Source of the DNA: Flavivirga amylovorans
GTDB lineage: Bacteria; Bacteroidota; Bacteroidia; Flavobacteriales; Flavobacteriaceae
NCBI RefSeq assembly: GCF_030540875.1
Contig: NZ_JAUOEM010000006.1
Span: forward strand, 248,001-312,000
Length of the DNA: 64,000 nt
Direction: 5' to 3'
Shown: in pieces, positions 7,560 through 62,754 of the stretch
Layout of the letters: the number at the start of each line of letters is the position of its first letter
How positions within the stretch are numbered: position 1 is the first letter of the stretch
The notes under the pieces: generated by a model
Told to the model about the DNA's origin: nothing
The model's database searches: none
What the model saw: only the letters and a program-made list of their open reading frames with translations
Program-made: the position numbers and the translations under genes

Positions 7560-8218
7560 GAATTAGCTAGCGCTTTAAGATCTTTGATAGTGGTGATTTG
7601 GTCACTACTTTTAAAGACATAACTTCCGGCAACTAAAACATCGGCGCCAGCATCTACAAGTGCTTTAGCATTTTTATTAGTCACACCGCCATCAATTTCT
7701 ATAATTGTTGAAGCACCTTTACGTACAATTAATTCTTTTAACTGCGATACTTTGTTATATGTGTTTTCAATAAAACTCTGCCCTCCAAACCCTGGATTTA
7801 CACTCATAATACAAACTAAATCAATGTCATTTATAGTGTCTTCTAAAACATTTATATTAGTATGTGGGTTTAGTGCTACACCAGCTTTCATCCCTTCAGC
7901 TTTTATAGCTTGTAAAGTTCTATGTAAATGCGTACAAGCTTCGTAATGTACGGTAAGTACATCACTACCTAATTCTGCAAACGTTTTAATATACCTATCA
8001 GGATCAACAATCATTAAATGTACATCAATCGTTTTTTTTGCATATTTTGTAATAGCCTGTAAAACAGGCATTCCAAAAGAAATGTTAGGTACAAATACCC
8101 CATCCATAATATCAATGTGAAACCAGTCGGCGTCACTGGTATTAACCATTTCTATATCACGTTGAAGGTTTGCAAAATCTGCAGCCAGAATTGATGGAGC
8201 AATTAGTTTAGAACTCAT
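7556..8218 (-). CDS. rpe: Ribulose-phosphate 3-epimerase
   Basis: Interconverts ribulose 5-phosphate and xylulose 5-phosphate in the pentose phosphate pathway, in the cytoplasm. The start at 8218 (MSSKLIAPSILAADFANL) fits the family; the frame extends 8 codons further to 8242 without homology. Family signatures are visible: DWFHIDIMDGVFVPNISFGMPVL, DVHLMIVDPDRYI, VNPGFGGQSFI and IEIDGGV. The length of 220 aa is normal. The start is followed upstream by the BLUF gene in the same direction. Confidence 0.97.
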   Translation of the reverse strand: MSSKLIAPSILAADFANLQRDIEMVNTSDADWFHIDIMDGVFVPNISFGMPVLQAITKYAKKTIDVHLMIVDPDRYIKTFAELGSDVLTVHYEACTHLHRTLQAIKAEGMKAGVALNPHTNINVLEDTINDIDLVCIMSVNPGFGGQSFIENTYNKVSQLKELIVRKGASTIIEIDGGVTNKNAKALVDAGADVLVAGSYVFKSSDQITTIKDLKALANS

Positions 8219-8257
8219 GGAATATTTTTGTTTATTCGGCAAAAATAACTGTTTTAC

Positions 8258-8677
8258 TTATTGTTTAGCTATTTTTTGCGCAATAAAATTTTCAACCATG
8301 TTAACAACTTTATTAGCTGACTTATTATCTGCTTTTCTTAGCCATTCGAGATATTCGTTAAGTTCACCTAGTTCTTTGCTGTTATCAACTATAGTGAACC
8401 CGAAATTATAGTCTTCAAAAATACGTTGTTGTGTATTTATGTCGATAACTTTAAAAAGATTTCTGTGTCTTCTATCTAAACTTATTCTTTTAAAAGTGGC
8501 ATCAACGCTAACTCGATCACCTTCAAGAACTTGTAGGAAATTAGCGTTAGAGTATATCAATACACCTGTTATGTTATATTTTGAATTATTTTTTTTCGCT
8601 TTTGAAAATAAAATTTTGAGAGTATTTAATGATTCTTCCTGACAAGAATCACTAATATAGCATATTGTCTTTAGCAT
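8258..8677 (-). CDS. BLUF-domain blue-light sensor
   Basis: 139 aa consisting essentially of one BLUF domain, which binds FAD non-covalently and senses blue light. The diagnostic residues are present: Tyr7 (ICYISDS), Asn35 (YNITGVLIY) and Gln49 (FLQVLEGD), the trio that rearranges hydrogen bonds on light absorption. No output domain is fused, so it belongs to the short BLUF class that acts through a protein partner. It lies 39 bases upstream of rpe; the neighbours do not reveal a target. Confidence 0.93.
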   Translation of the reverse strand: MLKTICYISDSCQEESLNTLKILFSKAKKNNSKYNITGVLIYSNANFLQVLEGDRVSVDATFKRISLDRRHRNLFKVIDINTQQRIFEDYNFGFTIVDNSKELGELNEYLEWLRKADNKSANKVVNMVENFIAQKIAKQ

Positions 8678-8764
8678 TTAAAAAAAATTGGTTCAATCTA
8701 AAATACAAAAAATAATATAATGGAGTGATTGGAGATCAATATTTATATTAAAGGGAATAAAAAC

Positions 8765-8791
8765 GAACCCCCGGTAATCAGCCGAGGGTTC
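8765..8791 (-). terminator. Rho-independent terminator downstream of rpoD
   Basis: On the minus strand GAACCC-TCGG pairs with CCG-GGGGTTC around a short loop and is followed by GTTTTT. It lies about 70 bases beyond the rpoD stop codon. Confidence 0.7.
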
Positions 8792-8860
8792 TTTCATCAA
8801 TCAAAAAACGAACAGTTATGTGTAACTGTTTGTTGTCGTAATTTAGTCGTAAAAAAATTA

Positions 8861-9724
8861 CTAACCTAAATATGTTTTTAATATTTTACTTCTAGAAGTA
8901 TGCTTGAGTCTTCTAATCGCTTTTTCTTTAATTTGTCTCACACGCTCACGTGTTAAGTCAAATGTTTCACCAATTTCTTCTAAAGTCATTGGATGTTGAT
9001 TTCCTAAACCAAAGTATAAGCGGATTACGTCTGCTTCACGGGGTGTTAATGTTTCCAAAGCACGCTCAATCTCAGTACGTAAAGACTCATGTAATAATTC
9101 TCTATCTGGATTTGGCGATTCACCACTGTTAAGTACATCGTATAAGTTTGAATCTTCACCTTCAACTAAAGGAGCATCCATACTTACGTGGCGACCAGAG
9201 TTTTTCATAGATTCTTTAACATCATTAATAGTCATGTCTAGTTCCTTAGCAATTTCCTCTGCACTTGGAGGACGTTCATGACTTTGCTCAAGAAAAGCAA
9301 ATGTTTTATTAATTTTATTAATAGATCCAATTTTGTTTAATGGTAAACGTACAATACGAGATTGTTCAGCCAATGCTTGCAAAATTGATTGACGAATCCA
9401 CCAAACAGCGTATGATATAAATTTAAAACCACGTGTTTCATCAAAACGTTGTGCCGCTTTAATTAAACCTAAATTACCTTCATTAATTAAATCTGGTAAT
9501 GTTAAACCTTGGTTTTGATATTGTTTTGCAACCGATACAACGAAACGTAAATTAGCTTTTGTCAACTTCTCTAAAGCTATCTGATCTCCAGCTTTAATAC
9601 GTTGTGCTAATTCTACTTCCTCGTCAGCTGTAATTAAATCAACCTTTCCTATTTCCTGTAGATATTTATCTAACGAAGCGGTTTCTCTATTAGTAACCTG
9701 CTTCGTAATTTTAAGTTGTCTCAT
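8861..9724 (-). CDS. rpoD: Primary RNA polymerase sigma factor (RpoD/SigA type)
   Basis: 287 aa, the compact form usual in Bacteroidota. Regions run in order: 1.2 ([24 protein letters not shown]), 2.1-2.4 with [13 protein letters not shown], 3 ([20 protein letters not shown]) and 4.2 with the helix-turn-helix [22 protein letters not shown]. The long acidic region 1.1 of proteobacterial RpoD is absent. This sigma is the one expected to read the TAnnTTTG promoters seen elsewhere in this window. A hairpin terminator follows the gene. Confidence 0.96.
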
Positions 9725-10064
9725 CTAAAGTTATCCTGTGATTTTTAATTGAATATTTGGGCATTCATGTGGTTATACGTATATATGTCGTATAATGTTA
9801 CAAAAAGTTTCAAATTATTTTTTGTATTCATTTTTTAGACCCGAAAAAATTAAGAAAGTCACATTAATACCTTTGTAGATTACACGAAAAATGAGATATT
9901 TACTATTTTTATGAATCATATAAATATTTTTTTTACTACTCTTTATTGAAAATCTAAAAGATATTTAAAGCAGTTCAAACCGCTTAAAATCTCCAGTATT
10001 AATAAGGTTTTTGAGGCAAAAAAGAAACAGAACAAACCCTATATTAAGAATTTGTCCCGCTCAG
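9725..10064. other. 340-bp intergenic region upstream of rpoD
   Basis: AT-rich leader region of rpoD. I found no open frame with coding character and no perfect TAnnTTTG element. The rpoD promoter must lie here. Confidence 0.6.
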
Positions 10065-10138
10065 TGACCGCGAAGGGATTCGAACCCCCAACCCTCAGAG
10101 CCGAAATCTGATATTCTATCCAGTTGAACTACGCAGCC
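10065..10138 (-). tRNA. tRNA-Arg (anticodon UCG)
   Basis: Cloverleaf read on the minus strand: acceptor GGCTGCG pairs with CGCGGTC (two G-U pairs), anticodon stem TCAGA/TCTGA with loop TTTCGGC giving anticodon TCG, and T-arm loop TTCGAAT. Discriminator base is A; the CCA end is not encoded. 74 nt. It would read CGA and related Arg codons. Confidence 0.92.
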
Positions 10139-10156
10139 ATTTATTTAATTATAAAT

Positions 10157-10262
10157 TGTCATTTCGACAGAGTGAAGCATGAACGACGAGAAATCTTTAA
10201 TTTCAATAAAAATAAACCTTATAATTATGAGATTCCTCCTCATACTTCGTTCGGAATGACAA
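10157..10262. repeat. Dispersed inverted repeat GTCATTTCGAC...TTCGGAATGAC
   Basis: The ends TTGTCATTTCGAC (10157-10169) and TTCGGAATGACAA (10250-10262) pair, and the inner parts GAGAAATCTTT and GAGATTCCTCCTC also pair partly. This is the palindromic intergenic repeat commonly seen in Bacteroidota. A degenerate half-copy lies near 10770-10826. Confidence 0.6.
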
Positions 10263-10284
10263 CTAATATTTGTTAACTATTAAT

Positions 10285-10734
10285 TTATGCTAATTTTTGT
10301 CGTACAATATTAGAAATGGTTTTACCATCAGCTTGCCCTGCTAACTCTTTGCTAACAATTCCCATAACTTTTCCCATATCTTTCATACCCTCTGCTCCTA
10401 TTTGATCTATAGTCATAACAACTACTTTTTCAATTTCTTCATCGGTTAAAGCTTCTGGTAAAAATTGAGCAATAACATCTGCCTCTGCTAATTCCGGTGA
10501 AGCTAAGTCTTCTCTTCCTTGCTCCAAATAAATAGCAGCGCTATCTCTTCGTTGTTTTACTTGTTTTTGAAGTATTTTAAGCTCTTGTTCTTCTGTTAAA
10601 TCCTCTTTTGCTCCACTTTCAGTTTGTGCCAATAAAATAGCAGATTTTACAGCACGCAAAGCCGTTAAAGCTGTTTGATTTTTAGCTTTCATTGCTTCTT
10701 TTAAAGCTGACATAACATCTTGTTGTAAACCCAT
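10285..10734 (-). CDS. yqeY: GatB/YqeY domain protein
   Basis: 149 aa from the ATG at 10734 (MGLQQDVMSALKEAMKAKN); the frame extends upstream to 10836 through repeat sequence, so the shorter start is right. The whole protein is a YqeY domain, related to the tRNA-binding tail of amidotransferase subunit GatB: ALRAVKSAILLAQTESGAKEDLTEEQ, RRDSAAIYLEQGREDLA and MGKVMGIVSKELAGQADGKTI-type segments are typical. Function as a free protein is not settled. A terminator separates it from ftsZ. Confidence 0.93.
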   Translation of the reverse strand: MGLQQDVMSALKEAMKAKNQTALTALRAVKSAILLAQTESGAKEDLTEEQELKILQKQVKQRRDSAAIYLEQGREDLASPELAEADVIAQFLPEALTDEEIEKVVVMTIDQIGAEGMKDMGKVMGIVSKELAGQADGKTISNIVRQKLA

Positions 10735-54836: not shown

Positions 54837-54909
54837 GGTACCTTAGCTCAGTTGGTAGAGCAAAGGACTGAAAATCCTTGTGTCCCTGGTTCGATTCCTG
54901 GAGGTACCA
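54837..54909 (+). tRNA. tRNA-Phe (anticodon GAA)
   Basis: Cloverleaf: acceptor GGTACCT/AGGTACC, D-arm GCTC...GAGC, anticodon stem AAGGA/TCCTT with loop CTGAAAA (anticodon GAA), T-arm CCTGG-TTCGATT-CCTGG with its stem pairing normally, discriminator A. 73 nt; CCA not encoded. tRNA 3' ends are frequent integration sites; the accessory region begins here. Confidence 0.96.
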
Positions 54910-54922
54910 CAACAAATAATTC

Positions 54923-55551: not shown

Positions 55552-56469
55552 ATGAAAAATCGAATGAAAATTAATTTTAAGTATAGCTATTTTAGCTTTG
55601 TACTACTATATATCTTAATACAATTATTTTTTGCAATAATCTATTATAAAATTTATATACATGACAACAATAACTTCTTTTTTTTCAAAGAAATACTAAA
55701 CTCTCAAAGAAATATTAAAATAGAAGAATTCGAAAAAGAAAAGGAAAAGTTCAAACAAGAAAATGTCAGAGCTTATAAGAATTACTTAGCCTTAACCAAC
55801 GATACAATTTTAAAGGAAAAATACTTAAACACTGAATTACCATATTTGAAAAAAGTAATTAAAAAAATTCCAGATAAGTATTTCACAAAAACATTAATAA
55901 ACAGAGCCTTTAACAACAATGATACTGTTATTAGTTTCAACTATGACCATTGGAATTTTCAAAAAAAATATGATAATAAAAATAATAATTTTCCTGTTAA
56001 TTTAGTTCCTCTATACGACATCAAAAATTTTTATATTAATATTAGCAGTTATACCACATCCAAACCTGATAATTTAATTTTCAGTTATAACTACTTTTTA
56101 GATAAGAGGTCATATATATTTGATAAGCACAGTAAAAGTTTTTGGAATTTCAAAAAAGACCTATTAAGTAGTTTAGAAAATCAAGACGAATTAATAAATT
56201 TTTATTTCAATACGCATACAAAAGACGTAATATCAAAGTACAAAAACCAGATTAAAGAATACAAACAGTTAGCTAGTGCAACTAAGGACGTGTGGGGATT
56301 TTCTGATTTTATTTATTTTAGCGTAACTGTTGTTGGTAATGGAGATATTACACCAAATTCTACTTTATGCCGATTAATGGTAGCATTACAAACCATAGCA
56401 AATCTAATATTAACAGTTGTTCTAGCTGATTTCATCCTATCAAAAAAAAATACTATTAAAAAGAATTAA
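55552..56469 (+). CDS. Two-helix ion-channel-like protein with unusual filter VGNGD
   Basis: 305 aa. Helix TM1 at about 12-32, a long soluble, lysine-rich segment with coiled-coil character (55-75) to about 245, a pore helix (250-258), a filter at 259-265 reading T-V-V-G-N-G-D, and TM2 at about 274-296. This is the Ion_trans_2 potassium channel plan, in which the usual filter is TTVGYGD. Asn replaces the aromatic residue. The soluble part between the helices would face the periplasm. No RCK or cyclic-nucleotide domain is present. Ion selectivity cannot be predicted. Confidence 0.75.
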   Translation: MKNRMKINFKYSYFSFVLLYILIQLFFAIIYYKIYIHDNNNFFFFKEILNSQRNIKIEEFEKEKEKFKQENVRAYKNYLALTNDTILKEKYLNTELPYLKKVIKKIPDKYFTKTLINRAFNNNDTVISFNYDHWNFQKKYDNKNNNFPVNLVPLYDIKNFYINISSYTTSKPDNLIFSYNYFLDKRSYIFDKHSKSFWNFKKDLLSSLENQDELINFYFNTHTKDVISKYKNQIKEYKQLASATKDVWGFSDFIYFSVTVVGNGDITPNSTLCRLMVALQTIANLILTVVLADFILSKKNTIKKN

Positions 56470-57300: not shown

Positions 57301-57552
57301 ATGATGGCACGAACTAGAAAAACACCAATACCCAAAGTGGTAATTGAATTTGGAAAAAAAATAAATACACTTAGAATAGAAAGAAAAATGTCACAGATGG
57401 ATTTAGGTGCAGCACTTGGAATAGACAGGGAAAATGTGCGTAAATATGAAAAAGGGCTACAAGAACCAAAACTTTCCACTATTATAAAATTTTCTGAAGT
57501 ATTTGAAGTCTCTTTTAATGACTTATTGAGCTACAAAAACTCAAAACCCTAA
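57301..57552 (+). CDS. XRE-family (Cro/CI-like) regulator
   Basis: 83 aa with one HTH_XRE domain: INTLRIERKMSQMDLGAALGIDRENVRKYEKGLQEPKLSTIIKFSEVFEVSFNDLL. The gene is 48 bases upstream of the ApeA-like gene on the same strand, so it probably controls it, as small XRE proteins often do next to defence genes. Start may be the first or second ATG. Confidence 0.9.
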   Translation: MMARTRKTPIPKVVIEFGKKINTLRIERKMSQMDLGAALGIDRENVRKYEKGLQEPKLSTIIKFSEVFEVSFNDLLSYKNSKP

Positions 57553-57600: not shown

Positions 57601-59058
57601 ATGCGTGAAAAAAGAGGTGAATGGTATTTACCAAATTCAGAACTTAAAATACCCGGTAAATTATATATTGATGAAGACAATAAGAAAATCATACTCCATC
57701 TTTTCACCTCAACTTATTTAAGTGGCAACGCAATAGAGCGTCAAACTTCAGATGAAGACTGGTATAATGAGATAATATTAGGAACAGGAATAAACAGTCT
57801 TACAACTTTGTATTCATGTACATTTTACTCCGATTCTCCTGTAAAAAAAGGTTTTCATGAACTAAAATATGAAGTAGAATATATATTTGATAGAGTACAT
57901 ATAAATAGCAATCAAAATCTTTTATTGAATAACATTTCCATAAGTTTCCCCAATATGAGAACCTTTTTTGATGGTTTTAAATCAATCTCTGGTGATGACA
58001 TTGAAGAACAATATTACAAACTCGATAGAGAAATCTTAATTAATGAAAATTTCAAAATTATTCTTAGCGACTCAAAACAAAAAATAATATCAACTAGAAA
58101 AGATTATAAAATAAAACATTCTAAAAGCGTTGACTTCGTATACCAAAAACCTGTAGACTTTAATATTATAAATAAAGACTGCTATACTTTTCTAAGAATG
58201 CTTGAATTCTCTTCAAGAAAAAACCTAGCATTTAAAATAAAACACGCTAGATTGGACATGAAAAATGTCTCCCAATATTCAGAAAACATATATATCCAAA
58301 ACAATGGCAAAATAGAAAAACCAAAATTCGCTACTACTTTTATTTATAGTAAATTGAATTTTAAAGAGGATATATTCTTAGATACAAAAAAATGGCATCA
58401 AAACTTTTTACTTTTTAGCGGATGGAGTGAATCAACTGAAGAATTAGATAGAATAATCAAAAAATGGTATTCAAATGAAAAACTAATGCCGGTATATGAT
58501 TTTTATATTGATTCTAATAATTGGTTTAGAGGAAAAGTAGCTCTATCTAATGTAATGTTCAACAATAAATTCCTAAATCTTATACAAGGACTTGAAGCTT
58601 ATTATGATTTTATCGACCCATCGTATACGTACACCAATGAAGAATTTACTAAAACCAGACAAGAAGTTCTTAACAAACTCGGTAATCCTGATTTAAAATC
58701 TTGGACTGAAGAACATTTGAGCTATCCAAAAAAATCAACATTAACCTATAAACTATCCCATTTATGCAACAAATACAAAAAAATAATATCACGTTTTTTT
58801 TTGGAAGATGATTTTATAAAAAAATACCCAAATGAAGCAAAAGAATTTAGACACAAATTATCTCACGGAAGAATTGACAAAACCTATCAAGGCACTAAAA
58901 TGGACGATTGTTACAAATTTTCTCAACTTCTTTTATGTATATGCCTTTTAGATTCTTTAGATATGAATTTTGACAGAATTATAGACCGAATAGGAACTAA
59001 TCCAGATTTAAATCACATGATAGGAGATATAAAAAACAGTATTAAAAACAATAGTTAA
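57601..59058 (+). CDS. ApeA-like HEPN-domain protein (probable anti-phage defence)
   Basis: 485 aa. The N-terminal part (GEWYLPNSELKIPGKLYIDED onwards, about 1-280) resembles the ApeA N-terminal domain, and the C-terminal part is a helical HEPN domain with the catalytic motif R-X4-H: Arg417, His418 and His422 in FRHKLSHG. ApeA was shown elsewhere to protect against phages, probably as an RNase activated on infection. The regulator immediately upstream and nuclease downstream support a defence locus. I judge this from motif and layout only; no search was run. Confidence 0.8.
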   Translation: MREKRGEWYLPNSELKIPGKLYIDEDNKKIILHLFTSTYLSGNAIERQTSDEDWYNEIILGTGINSLTTLYSCTFYSDSPVKKGFHELKYEVEYIFDRVHINSNQNLLLNNISISFPNMRTFFDGFKSISGDDIEEQYYKLDREILINENFKIILSDSKQKIISTRKDYKIKHSKSVDFVYQKPVDFNIINKDCYTFLRMLEFSSRKNLAFKIKHARLDMKNVSQYSENIYIQNNGKIEKPKFATTFIYSKLNFKEDIFLDTKKWHQNFLLFSGWSESTEELDRIIKKWYSNEKLMPVYDFYIDSNNWFRGKVALSNVMFNNKFLNLIQGLEAYYDFIDPSYTYTNEEFTKTRQEVLNKLGNPDLKSWTEEHLSYPKKSTLTYKLSHLCNKYKKIISRFFLEDDFIKKYPNEAKEFRHKLSHGRIDKTYQGTKMDDCYKFSQLLLCICLLDSLDMNFDRIIDRIGTNPDLNHMIGDIKNSIKNNS

Positions 59059-59072
59059 TTCTTTATTACTTT

Positions 59073-61442
59073 TTATTCAATACCTTTTTTTTTCTGATGT
59101 TTTTTCATCCATGCTTCATTTTGTAATTCTGAACAAGTCCTTAATCCTAGATGTTTTTCACAACTTAAATCTGCTATAGTTTTGACGTAATCAACTCCTG
59201 TATAGTTCTTAATAGTATCACTGTATTCTGATAAGCCAAAACCTCCTCGGTTAGGAATCAATTCACTCCCAGTCAATAATAGGACTGGATTAGTTGTATC
59301 GAACTCCTTAGTCCTGAAATCATTGACCAACTTTCTTAATAATACTTTTTCATCTTCCAAAAACTCTTCTTTCAATGTTGCAACAACTAAAGTTGTACCC
59401 TCCATTTGCTCGCCAAAAAACTTTAAACGAAAATAATCCTTTTCACCTATAGACTTAAAAGTTTTACACTCGCAAACAAATGATTCAACCTTATTTTCAT
59501 ATTTGAAGCTCTTAGACAATACAACCAAATCTACTTCAAAATCATTCTTGTCTTTTTTTGCTTCAAAATCAAAAATAAATGATATACCTTCAGTACCATC
59601 AGACATATCAAGTTTAAACAATCTAATAGTTAAAAAAACAGATAACAATCCATCTACTTTATTATTACGACTAAAAGGCCCTAGACCTCTGTAAACATAT
59701 TTCAAACTACTTTTGGGGTCACTTTTAGGTAACTCAAACGTATTTCTACAAACTGAACACTTAAGTTCGTCATTTAAATCTTGTAGTAAATAAAATGTTC
59801 TTTGTTCACATACAGAACATTGAATTTTAACCCCAAATTCAATAATTTGCTTTCTTAAAAGTAGTTCAATAACATCTTTAGGCTTTTTAAACTCCGGGTA
59901 AGGTTTATGCTGATTTATTTTTCCAACTAATTCTTCGACAGATACAACATTCCCATTTTCAAAAAGTTCAACGATTTTGATTGCATTACTTGTTGAGAAC
60001 AAATTAGCTCCATGAATTCCTCCTATATTTTTTAAAACCTCATAACCAAGTTTCCCAGATGCTGTTTGCTTTATAGAAATATCTTTATTCACAAAATACT
60101 TAGAAAAAAACTTAAATGATTCAGGCAAATAAAAACTCACATTATCATCTTCATGATTTATATATTTAAAAATTCCGTTTTTACTTACTTTCCATTCATT
60201 CCTAAAACTAAAATCTCTAGTAATACCAACCCAGTCTTTAGTAGTAATACCAGAAATTACCTCAGCATACTTACCTTCGTCTTCCCAATAACTTAGAGAC
60301 AAATTACTCTTTAATAGCCCACTATTTGAAAATCTACTTTTGAATGGCAAAGGAGGTAATTTAAAATTTACATAACCAGCTTCTTCACTTTCAATAGTAT
60401 CATGTTCACTATCAACAAAAATTTGAGGGCAAAAAACTAAATCACCTCTTAGGATTTCATTATAATCATGCCAAAAACGAGGAAACCAATGTTGATGTAG
60501 TAAAGAAACTTTTAGCTTTTCATCTGATATAATTGAGTTAACATAATCCATAATAGGTTTTGGTTTAAAACTGCTCGATATTAATACATCGATTATTTTA
60601 AACTTAAATCGTTTTTCCCTAATCTCTAAATCTTTTAAAATTTCAATTATAGCCTCTTTATAAGGCACAGTTTTCATTTTAGATACTGGGACTGGAAATA
60701 ATTTCCAACCTAAAGCTCTTAAATTCCAATAATCAATAACATCTAAAGTATCAGACGGATTAAGAAAGTACAGAACAGTGTTTTTAGAAATTCCCCTATC
60801 ATACAATAATCTTGTTTTGTAAATATTGATAAACCTTAAAGAAAGATTATTATTTTCAAAAAACTTATTGAAGGTTTTGTAATTAAAATCTATTTTTTCA
60901 ATAAATGATTCCTTCAATAAATAATTTTGCACATATTTTATGTTAATGCTATTTAAAAATGTACCCTGCCAAGCATTTAGTAAAAGGTCATCCTTATTAA
61001 TTTCAGGTATTCTGATTTTTAAATTATCAGTTCTATTATATTTAAATTCTTCTTTTATTAAACTGTTTATTACTAAATCTATGCTTATACCTTTTTCTAA
61101 ACTAAATCGTTCTAAATCTTCTTTAAACTTTGACAAAGAAATCATTTTCACTTCTACTCCAAAAGCAATTAATTCTTCTTTATCTATATCATCATCATAA
61201 ACAATAATATCTGGGTCATAATTTTTGATAATATTCCCGTAATAAACTTTACGAGATGCACCCATATTATACCTTAATCTATATTTTTCAGAAAACCTTT
61301 TGTAATATGGTATTATAGGAGAATAAATACCACACCAGACCGAAAACAAGCACTTAATAGATTCCAATAAATCTTTTCTATTCGGTTTAATAAAAAAGCA
61401 AAACTTAATAGGACTTAATTCTTGACGTAGATTAACTTTCAT
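59073..61442 (-). CDS. Zinc-ribbon PD-(D/E)XK nuclease-like protein, 789 aa, unassigned
   Basis: No recognised family. Residues 1-50 begin IKFCFFIKPNRKDLLESI with SVWCGIYSPIIP; the middle (about 60-520) has no clear motif, with helical segments near the end. A zinc ribbon follows: Cys542, Cys545, Cys562, Cys565 (CSVC-16-CSVC). A PD-(D/E)XK core then fits: FEVDLVVL (Asp638) and VCECKTF (Glu658, Lys660). This architecture suggests a DNA- or RNA-cutting enzyme. It is convergent with the ApeA-like gene (15-base gap). Whether it is a restriction-like defence effector is inference. Confidence 0.75.
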   Translation of the reverse strand: MKVNLRQELSPIKFCFFIKPNRKDLLESIKCLFSVWCGIYSPIIPYYKRFSEKYRLRYNMGASRKVYYGNIIKNYDPDIIVYDDDIDKEELIAFGVEVKMISLSKFKEDLERFSLEKGISIDLVINSLIKEEFKYNRTDNLKIRIPEINKDDLLLNAWQGTFLNSINIKYVQNYLLKESFIEKIDFNYKTFNKFFENNNLSLRFINIYKTRLLYDRGISKNTVLYFLNPSDTLDVIDYWNLRALGWKLFPVPVSKMKTVPYKEAIIEILKDLEIREKRFKFKIIDVLISSSFKPKPIMDYVNSIISDEKLKVSLLHQHWFPRFWHDYNEILRGDLVFCPQIFVDSEHDTIESEEAGYVNFKLPPLPFKSRFSNSGLLKSNLSLSYWEDEGKYAEVISGITTKDWVGITRDFSFRNEWKVSKNGIFKYINHEDDNVSFYLPESFKFFSKYFVNKDISIKQTASGKLGYEVLKNIGGIHGANLFSTSNAIKIVELFENGNVVSVEELVGKINQHKPYPEFKKPKDVIELLLRKQIIEFGVKIQCSVCEQRTFYLLQDLNDELKCSVCRNTFELPKSDPKSSLKYVYRGLGPFSRNNKVDGLLSVFLTIRLFKLDMSDGTEGISFIFDFEAKKDKNDFEVDLVVLSKSFKYENKVESFVCECKTFKSIGEKDYFRLKFFGEQMEGTTLVVATLKEEFLEDEKVLLRKLVNDFRTKEFDTTNPVLLLTGSELIPNRGGFGLSEYSDTIKNYTGVDYVKTIADLSCEKHLGLRTCSELQNEAWMKKHQKKKGIE

Positions 61443-61817: not shown

Positions 61818-61892
61818 TTAATCAATCCAAATATCTATATCAACAGCGCCATTGCCTAGTACATGAGAAAGGTTACAGCTGAAAACTCTCAT
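61818..61892 (-). CDS. 24-aa overlapping micro-ORF
   Basis: ATG at 61892, TAA at 61820-61818, overlapping the last 20 bases of the 78-aa gene in another frame. The translation is not random: it starts MRVFSCNLSHVLGNGAVDID and ends in IWID. It may be a real micro-protein, or the true C-terminus of the 78-aa gene separated by a frameshift. Confidence 0.35.
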   Translation of the reverse strand: MRVFSCNLSHVLGNGAVDIDIWID

Positions 61893-62109
61893 CTTCCAAC
61901 CTCATCTGTTCTGTAAGGACACCCCTCCTTTCACATTCAAAAAGGATATCTAGCATAGCATTATTTTTCAGATAGTTATACTCTTGCCATAAGTTATAAT
62001 CAGAAATATCAGCGTTTTCCTCATAATTATATTTAACATAATCTATCATTAACTTTTTTAAAACAGGATTTTTATCAAAACCTGTTACTTCATATTCGTA
62101 ATTTTCCAT
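61873..62109 (-). CDS. Small acidic protein, 78 aa
   Basis: Soluble, rich in Glu, Asp and Tyr, and predicted helical (YEVTGFDKNPVLKKLMIDYVKYNYEENADISD). No family recognised. It follows the HTH/Rep-like gene by 28 bases on the same strand. A micro-ORF overlaps its end, which raises the possibility of a frameshift at its C-terminus. Confidence 0.65.
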   Translation of the reverse strand: MENYEYEVTGFDKNPVLKKLMIDYVKYNYEENADISDYNLWQEYNYLKNNAMLDILFECERRGVLTEQMRLEDESFQL

Positions 62110-62137: not shown

Positions 62138-62569
62138 TTAAATCCATCTTTCTGGATATATGATTGCCACCCTGAGTGTTTTAATCAATTTTTTTCTATT
62201 AGAACAGTTAGTATACAAGTGAATGTGATTTTGACCGTTAGCCTTCTTCTTTTCGATGGTATAGCTTATTTCAATACCCTTTATGGGAAGCAACTCAACC
62301 ACATACTCCATAATTATTTTTATCTCGCTTTCCTTATAAGTATAATTTGGGTCAACAGTTAAAGCGTAATACTTTTTACCTCTTATCCTAACCGGTTTAA
62401 ACTTTGTTATAATCATTCTATGTATTTGCCACCTACCATTTGAATCCTTAATTAATAAGTTCTTATACTTACCACTTTCTTTATAATAAATAATTCTATT
62501 TCTAATCTGTTTGCCACTTAACTTCATTCTTTTACTAACTTCTGAAACACTATAATATTCTTTTTCCAT
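62138..62569 (-). CDS. HTH protein with an HUH-Rep-like half domain
   Basis: 143 aa from the ATG at 62569; the frame extends upstream to 62602. Residues about 5-30 form a helix-turn-helix (YYSVSEVSKRMKLSGKQIRNRI). The second half has a strand YYALTVDP (67-74), a helix, a strand ISYTIEKKK, and HIH at 115-117 in NHIHLYT. FLT-like and His-hydrophobic-His motifs in this order are features of rolling-circle Rep (HUH) enzymes. No catalytic Tyr motif follows and the protein ends soon after, so it may be a truncated or inactive Rep-like regulator. Confidence 0.6.
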   Translation of the reverse strand: MEKEYYSVSEVSKRMKLSGKQIRNRIIYYKESGKYKNLLIKDSNGRWQIHRMIITKFKPVRIRGKKYYALTVDPNYTYKESEIKIIMEYVVELLPIKGIEISYTIEKKKANGQNHIHLYTNCSNRKKLIKTLRVAIIYPERWI

Positions 62570-62754
62570 AATCACTTTTTTATATACCACATCCATTAAC
62601 AAGATGCCTTATTTCCCATTACCAATAGGTCTTTATTTTAAATAGTGAGAAATACAAAAAAGTTTAACCTTTTTATAACTTTTCCAGAAAATAATATGTA
62701 AGAGATTAATTATTAAATAATTACAATGGTTTTTATTTTATAATTATTATTTTT

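Follow-up and report, generated by a model that had tools for sequence, protein, structure and literature searches.

The described systems closest to the gene considered here are the CRISPR ancillary CARF nucleases Can2, Card1 and Cdn1, which have a PD-(D/E)XK core behind an accessory helical, winged-helix-like segment and carry ExD and ECK motifs; an excerpt of the Can2 paper (PMC7969007) gives Glu276 and Asp278 as active-site residues, describes an addition to the core in which four helices flank two strands, and compares the enzyme with EndoMS and AgeI. The gene lies in a 64,000-nucleotide stretch of Flavivirga amylovorans DNA (contig NZ_JAUOEM010000006.1, positions 248,001 to 312,000; hereafter the window) and encodes a 789-residue protein, labelled P0001, whose C-terminal half is predicted to share this arrangement (Table 1). 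Our analysis suggests that it is probably a single-gene, mobile, accessory defence nuclease, in which a Can2-like effector half is joined to a putative regulatory half.

Structure prediction strongly supports the assignment of the C-terminal half of P0001 as a PD-(D/E)XK nuclease with a fold resembling the effector half of Can2, Card1 and Cdn1, and we consider it very likely that the protein is a nuclease. An AlphaFold2 model built from 76 family rows (mean predicted local distance difference test score (pLDDT) 91.3, predicted template modelling (pTM) score 0.90) places two α/β lobes ahead of a β-rich domain, a helical winged-helix-like segment, a pair of Cys4 knuckles and the nuclease core, in which a helix (595–613) is followed by strands 620–630, 633–644 (carrying D638) and 652–660 (carrying E658 and K660), a further helix (667–679) and a strand (684–689). 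The best structural matches were Can2, Card1 and Cdn1: Foldseek returned only one Cdn1 and two Card1 chains under an E value of 0.001, with low whole-length TM scores of 0.14–0.17, and VIA-align scored Cdn1 at 10.9, Can2 at 10.3, VC1899 at 10.2 (root-mean-square deviation 13.4) and Card1 at 10.2, mostly over residues ~420–755, with FokI following at 8.6; by the tool's own note, 7–8 is the usual best score where there is no true relative. The first-pass annotation had suggested a restriction-endonuclease fold from residue spacing, and the model has this fold, matching Cdn1, Can2, Card1, FokI and the two enzymes with which Can2 itself was compared in the excerpt, EndoMS and AgeI.

P0001 nevertheless differs from Can2 in being about twice as long, in having a predicted two-lobed 336-residue module where Can2 carries one CARF domain, and in having an extra β domain and a Cys4 knuckle. 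Because it is unmatched by Card1_endonuc (PF09002) among Pfam rows at E ≤ 1 and the linkage of its family to Cas10 is inconsistent (see below), we do not file the family under Card1/Can2, although it would work in the manner of a Can2-type effector.

At the sequence level, conservation of the cysteine and predicted catalytic motifs is far above chance. The CSVC-16-CSVC pattern (542–545/562–565) and the residues D638, E658 and K660 stand where the first-pass annotation had placed them, and C542, C545, C562, C565, D638, E658 and K660 are each invariant in 85 of 85 distinct aligned sequences, with E636 kept in 84 of the 85. These sequences are P0001 and 84 of 96 open reading frame (ORF) hits; the fragments L013 and L015 (remnants of 311 and 121 amino acids; L numbers denote loci), the split gene of L088 (two pieces) and identical copies were dropped, and L078, cut by a contig end, yielded no ORF hit. 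The same seven residues account for half of the 14 invariant columns in a 76-row alignment (A4) that omits L051, L087, L088, L093, L096, L097, the plasmid copies and the loci from genome searches. Since most relatives were found by scanning for the motif D[LIV]x[NDT][YF]WNLRA, the scan itself contributes to the conservation of D234-WNLRA, but not to that of the C, D, E and K residues. A far relative of 745 residues (L125, the whole of L014) likewise keeps the Cys4 part and DxD...ExK.

The N-terminal module, which carries W36-x-G38, P42, P77-D78 and D234-x4-WNLR, was also modelled alone with high confidence (pLDDT 92.1), and comparison of these 336 residues with PDB structures gave no clear match. 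In lobe 2 the loops that follow strands are better conserved than those that precede them (mean entropy 2.22 versus 3.22; consensus QxWYPRxW included), and in lobe 1 it is the loops ahead of strands that are better conserved (2.65 after versus 1.45 before), with RP, WGG and FDPD in the conserved loops; a pocket in the module is therefore possible. The first-pass annotation had proposed that the ~500 residues ahead of the cysteines could hold a sensing domain: that idea fits the two-lobed module and a C-terminal half that resembles ligand-gated nucleases, with sensing itself putative. Gating of the nuclease by this module, which we infer from the resemblance of the effector half to Can2 and Card1, is a plausible but tentative proposal by analogy. 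The module is joined to the C-terminal half in the complete relatives examined; a search for it in another phylum gave matches in 6 of 398 genomes (the centre genome included), and the candidate arrangement of a modular sensor swapped onto another effector was not seen among them.

That the architecture matches no described family, as the first-pass annotation had put it, agrees with our sequence searches. At E ≤ 1, P0001 matched 0 families in PADLOC-DB (2023) and gave no row or only chance-level rows against Pfam, NCBIfam and PHROGs; PDB sequences at E ≤ 10 yielded nothing above chance, and the 76-row family profile retrieved from PDB sequences one de novo design only (E 0.11). Phage records held no match to P0001 or to a Citrobacter member, complete Escherichia coli genomes no DNA match to the latter, and the viral structures in BFVD no match under E 0.001. 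No description of the architecture was found in literature text searches or in excerpts of PMC7969007 and PMC4012209, where the family is not searchable by sequence.

The distribution of the family is sporadic. It was found in 3 of 395 genomes in an order-level search and in 7 of 395 at the phylum level, the window's own genome included in each, with two of the seven being remnants (G530, G429) and one a divergent copy (G221). A species genome collection yielded 100 confirmed relatives, of which 80 were kept, and record titles span Bacteroidota, proteobacteria, Poribacteria, Chloroflexi, candidate phyla and Streptomyces, with many metagenome-assembled genomes (MAGs). Among the loci matched in the search of the other phylum, L119 is a full family member, L117 is the Methylobacter copy already among the relatives, L118 and L124 extend past their contig ends, and the 498-residue L120, which stops 12 bases from a contig end and ahead of the Cys4 part, is therefore probably broken or mis-assembled.

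Several copies lie on mobile DNA. Relatives were found on two plasmids and on two viral-collection contigs; on one of the latter (L017, from IMG/VR) the member (7992-10397, + strand) lies downstream of ORFs that gave the impression of being transposase- and Mu-B-like, a context that suggests prophage cargo. The members at L006/L022, L020 and L024 lie on an element that these loci have in common and that carries topoisomerase and DUF1896 genes; they include a 98.7% identical pair, one in Flavobacterium ichthyis and one in a Sediminibacterium MAG (possibly mis-binned).

Restriction and other defence genes are also over-represented around family genes. We scanned 137 of 152 immediate neighbours (15 were omitted for size or origin, and the duplicate locus L006/L022 was skipped); the best 25 of 114 families included HsdS (5), Schlafen AlbA (4), GmrSD_N (3), a Fic-like C-terminal domain (3), N6 methylase (2) and SWI2_SNF2, McrBC, DarT, Tsp45I and Type ISP (1 each), and the PADLOC matches listed were nearly all type I specificity models with 5 members each. 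In a control set of 110 of 112 distal genes, each at least 6.5 kb from the family gene, none of HsdS, AlbA and GmrSD_N reached two members, with one N6 methylase and one McrBC among the matches listed; restriction and other defence models were still found in this distal set at a stricter PADLOC cut-off, so whole regions are defence-rich. Individual neighbours include an OLD/GajA-like ATPase and a SIR2/ThsA-like gene on opposite sides of one member (L027), a GmrSD/NsnA-like gene (L021) and a PDC-S11 gene (L053).

In the window itself, the gene probably belongs to an integrative island of ~11.2 kb that also encodes ApeA, Xre-type and ion-channel-pore proteins. This view of the sequence rests on a repeat of the tRNA-Phe end, an integrase-like gene and empty-site-like flanks in the same genus. 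The 13-base tRNA-Phe end recurs once in the ~80 kb examined, adjoining a phage-integrase-like gene in two pieces (~64429–65900), the larger of which matches Phage_integrase at E 1.4e-4 and 22.1 bits, below the Pfam cut-off. In 6 of 11 same-genus genomes (in one over 28 bases only), the tRNA-Phe end is followed by DNA that aligns with the stretch from the right repeat onwards, as expected of an unoccupied site; no empty site was seen in the same species. Similarity also extends past the left copy, so the repeat could be an imperfect one of more than 13 bases. ApeA is a single-gene accessory defence protein, and the convergent island neighbour is of this type (ApeA_NTD1 E 7.8e-19, HEPN_Apea E 4e-11). 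It resembles the nuclease gene in being a single-gene accessory defence candidate on the same island, and differs from it in having HEPN-type domains and no family in common. As no ApeA relative was found among the ORFs of family loci (blastp or phmmer, E 1e-3), we dropped ApeA as a partner and treat it as co-resident. The pore protein is possibly a membrane effector. E636 of the catalytic motif, the winged-helix-like part, the ApeA neighbour and the tRNA-Phe island are all additions to the first-pass annotation.

Table 1 Features of the nuclease gene, its predicted protein and the surrounding island (window positions)
Feature	Position	Strand	Basis or remark
Nuclease-candidate gene, unnamed family	59073..61442	-	789 aa, ATG start, no interruption
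Residues 1-336, two-lobed α/β (Rossmann-like) module, putative regulatory/sensor part	60435..61442	-	Models, conservation
Residues 337-440, mainly β linker domain	60123..60434	-	Modelled secondary structure, entropy; weak conservation
Residues 442-541, winged-helix-like segment	59820..60119	-	Model; name inferred; inside stretch aligned to Can2/Cdn1
Residues 542-575, Cys4 zinc-ribbon-like knuckle pair C542xxC545...C562xxC565	59718..59819	-	85/85 conserved; zinc binding putative
Residues 580-765, predicted PD-(D/E)XK nuclease core	59148..59705	-	Model, structural matches
E636-V-D638, predicted metal ligands	59529..59537	-	Conservation; ExD spacing as in Glu276/Asp278 of Can2 (PMC7969007, excerpt)
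E658-C-K660, predicted catalytic ExK	59463..59471	-	Conservation
ApeA-type neighbour (ApeA_NTD1 + HEPN_Apea)	57601..59058	+	Convergent, 14 bases from nuclease gene
Small Xre-type helix-turn-helix (HTH) protein, upstream of ApeA	57301..57552	+	Pfam
305-aa protein with C-terminal Ion_trans_2 pore domain	55552-56469	+	E 1.5e-5; on island
Small island ORF, HTH/excisionase-type by impression only	62138-62602	-	No convincing family match
Small island ORF	61873-62109	-	No convincing family match
tRNA-Phe(GAA), island insertion site	54837..54910	+	Last 13 bases (54898-54910) = left repeat
Right 13-bp repeat	66065-66077 (L008:6077 end)		Contig position, outside window

A defence role is likely given the rarity, mobility and neighbours of the family. 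In the mechanism that we propose, the N-terminal module would keep the nuclease inactive until an infection signal is met, which might be a small ligand, a phage product or the loss of a partner (for instance, of a type I restriction complex). With nucleic acid gripped by the winged helix and Cys4 knuckle, the ExD/ExK site would then cut DNA, and perhaps RNA too as reported for Can2, and cutting would stop the invader or the infected cell. An exception to the conservation of the predicted catalytic residues is a far relative of 865 residues (L123:4220-6817, outside the 85), which has the four cysteines and ExD and lacks the ExK lysine. The same locus holds, 9 bases upstream (L123:530-4210), a gene whose 1226-residue product matches no Pfam or PADLOC family and shows, by eye, a P-loop-like stretch; together with the lysine-less member it makes a possible two-gene system.

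The likeness to Can2 and Card1 raises the question of whether P0001 is itself a cyclic-oligonucleotide-gated effector of their type, with a diverged CARF-like sensor and a Cas10 or CBASS (cyclic-oligonucleotide-based antiphage signalling system) cyclase elsewhere in the genome. SMODS cyclases occur in 3 of 5 carrier genomes and a clear Cas10 in one further carrier, G753 (E 1.3e-34), and the effector half is indeed Can2/Card1-like. However, the window genome, which is 99.99% complete, has no Cas10 or SMODS cyclase match at E ≤ 0.001, and SMODS is also absent from carrier G483. The Cas10 palm model matched 0 of 5 carriers, the window genome included, and in a further set of 12 it matched three, two over the cut-off and only the one just named strongly; one of the 12 (G762, via L023) is the same genome as G507 of the first five, and the model also matches E. 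coli. Such inconsistency across carriers does not support a constant cyclic-oligoadenylate partner, and, with PF09002 unmatched and hhalign of the family against three Card1-type sequences giving a probability of 20.7, we regard this explanation as quite improbable. It is unlikely, if somewhat less so, that the protein acts as a type II/IV-like restriction enzyme directed by modification or sequence, in which DNA would be read by the N-terminal part together with the winged helix and the Cys4 knuckle and no separate signal would be needed: FokI and other PD-(D/E)XK restriction enzymes share the core fold, but the family has no constant cognate methyltransferase, a Pfam scan of eight window proteins, P0001 and seven neighbours, having turned up none (and no hsd domain); its N-terminal module is unrelated to theirs as far as searched, and its top fold cluster consists of ligand-gated nucleases. 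Least probable, and by our estimate highly so, is an accessory DNA-repair nuclease of the EndoMS kind, which is among the structural matches, against which stand the sporadic distribution, the mobile context and the defence neighbours.

A further possibility draws on PrrC, an ABC-ATPase anticodon nuclease. As a guard of type I restriction with PrrC-like logic, the family protein would be silenced by HsdRMS until a phage anti-restriction protein puts the complex out of action and so releases it. Six loci place the family gene beside or inside type I loci, all six verified with Pfam (the hsdS of L094 by BLAST cluster). Among the arrangements listed, the family gene of L090 and L094 stops 4 bases short of hsdS, which is followed by hsdR, and other ORFs lie between it and an upstream hsdM; in L050 the start of the gene and the end of hsdS share one base; in L052 and L074 the gene begins 75 bp behind hsdS and 85 bp behind hsdR, respectively; and in L053 it follows hsdR with one gene between. 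Guards of the PrrC/RloC type likewise have accessory nuclease genes in or beside hsd loci in some genomes, and PrrC is the precedent for such guarding (PMC2610378). Against this, the family protein is of PD-(D/E)XK type and most copies lie away from hsd genes: HsdR BLAST-cluster genes occur in just 9 of 87 loci (a total that counts L006/L022 twice and includes the locus in the window), the window neighbours scanned yielded no hsd domain, and P0001 itself has none of the HsdR, HsdM or HsdS Pfam domains. As a general explanation of the family we therefore judge it, too, quite improbable.

Taken further than the accessory defence nuclease that we favour, the data may hint at an undescribed class of signal-gated immune nucleases outside CRISPR (clustered regularly interspaced short palindromic repeats) and CBASS, combining a Can2-like DNA/RNA-cutting half with a new two-lobed sensor and in some lineages backing up defeated type I restriction; we put this forward as a speculative proposal that is rather unlikely to hold in full. 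If true, it would add a broadly spread, unnamed nuclease family to bacterial immunity and mean that the Can2/Card1 effector fold operates without CRISPR signalling. The signal of the N-terminal module would then become directly testable, and the hsd-linked copies would serve as natural experiments.
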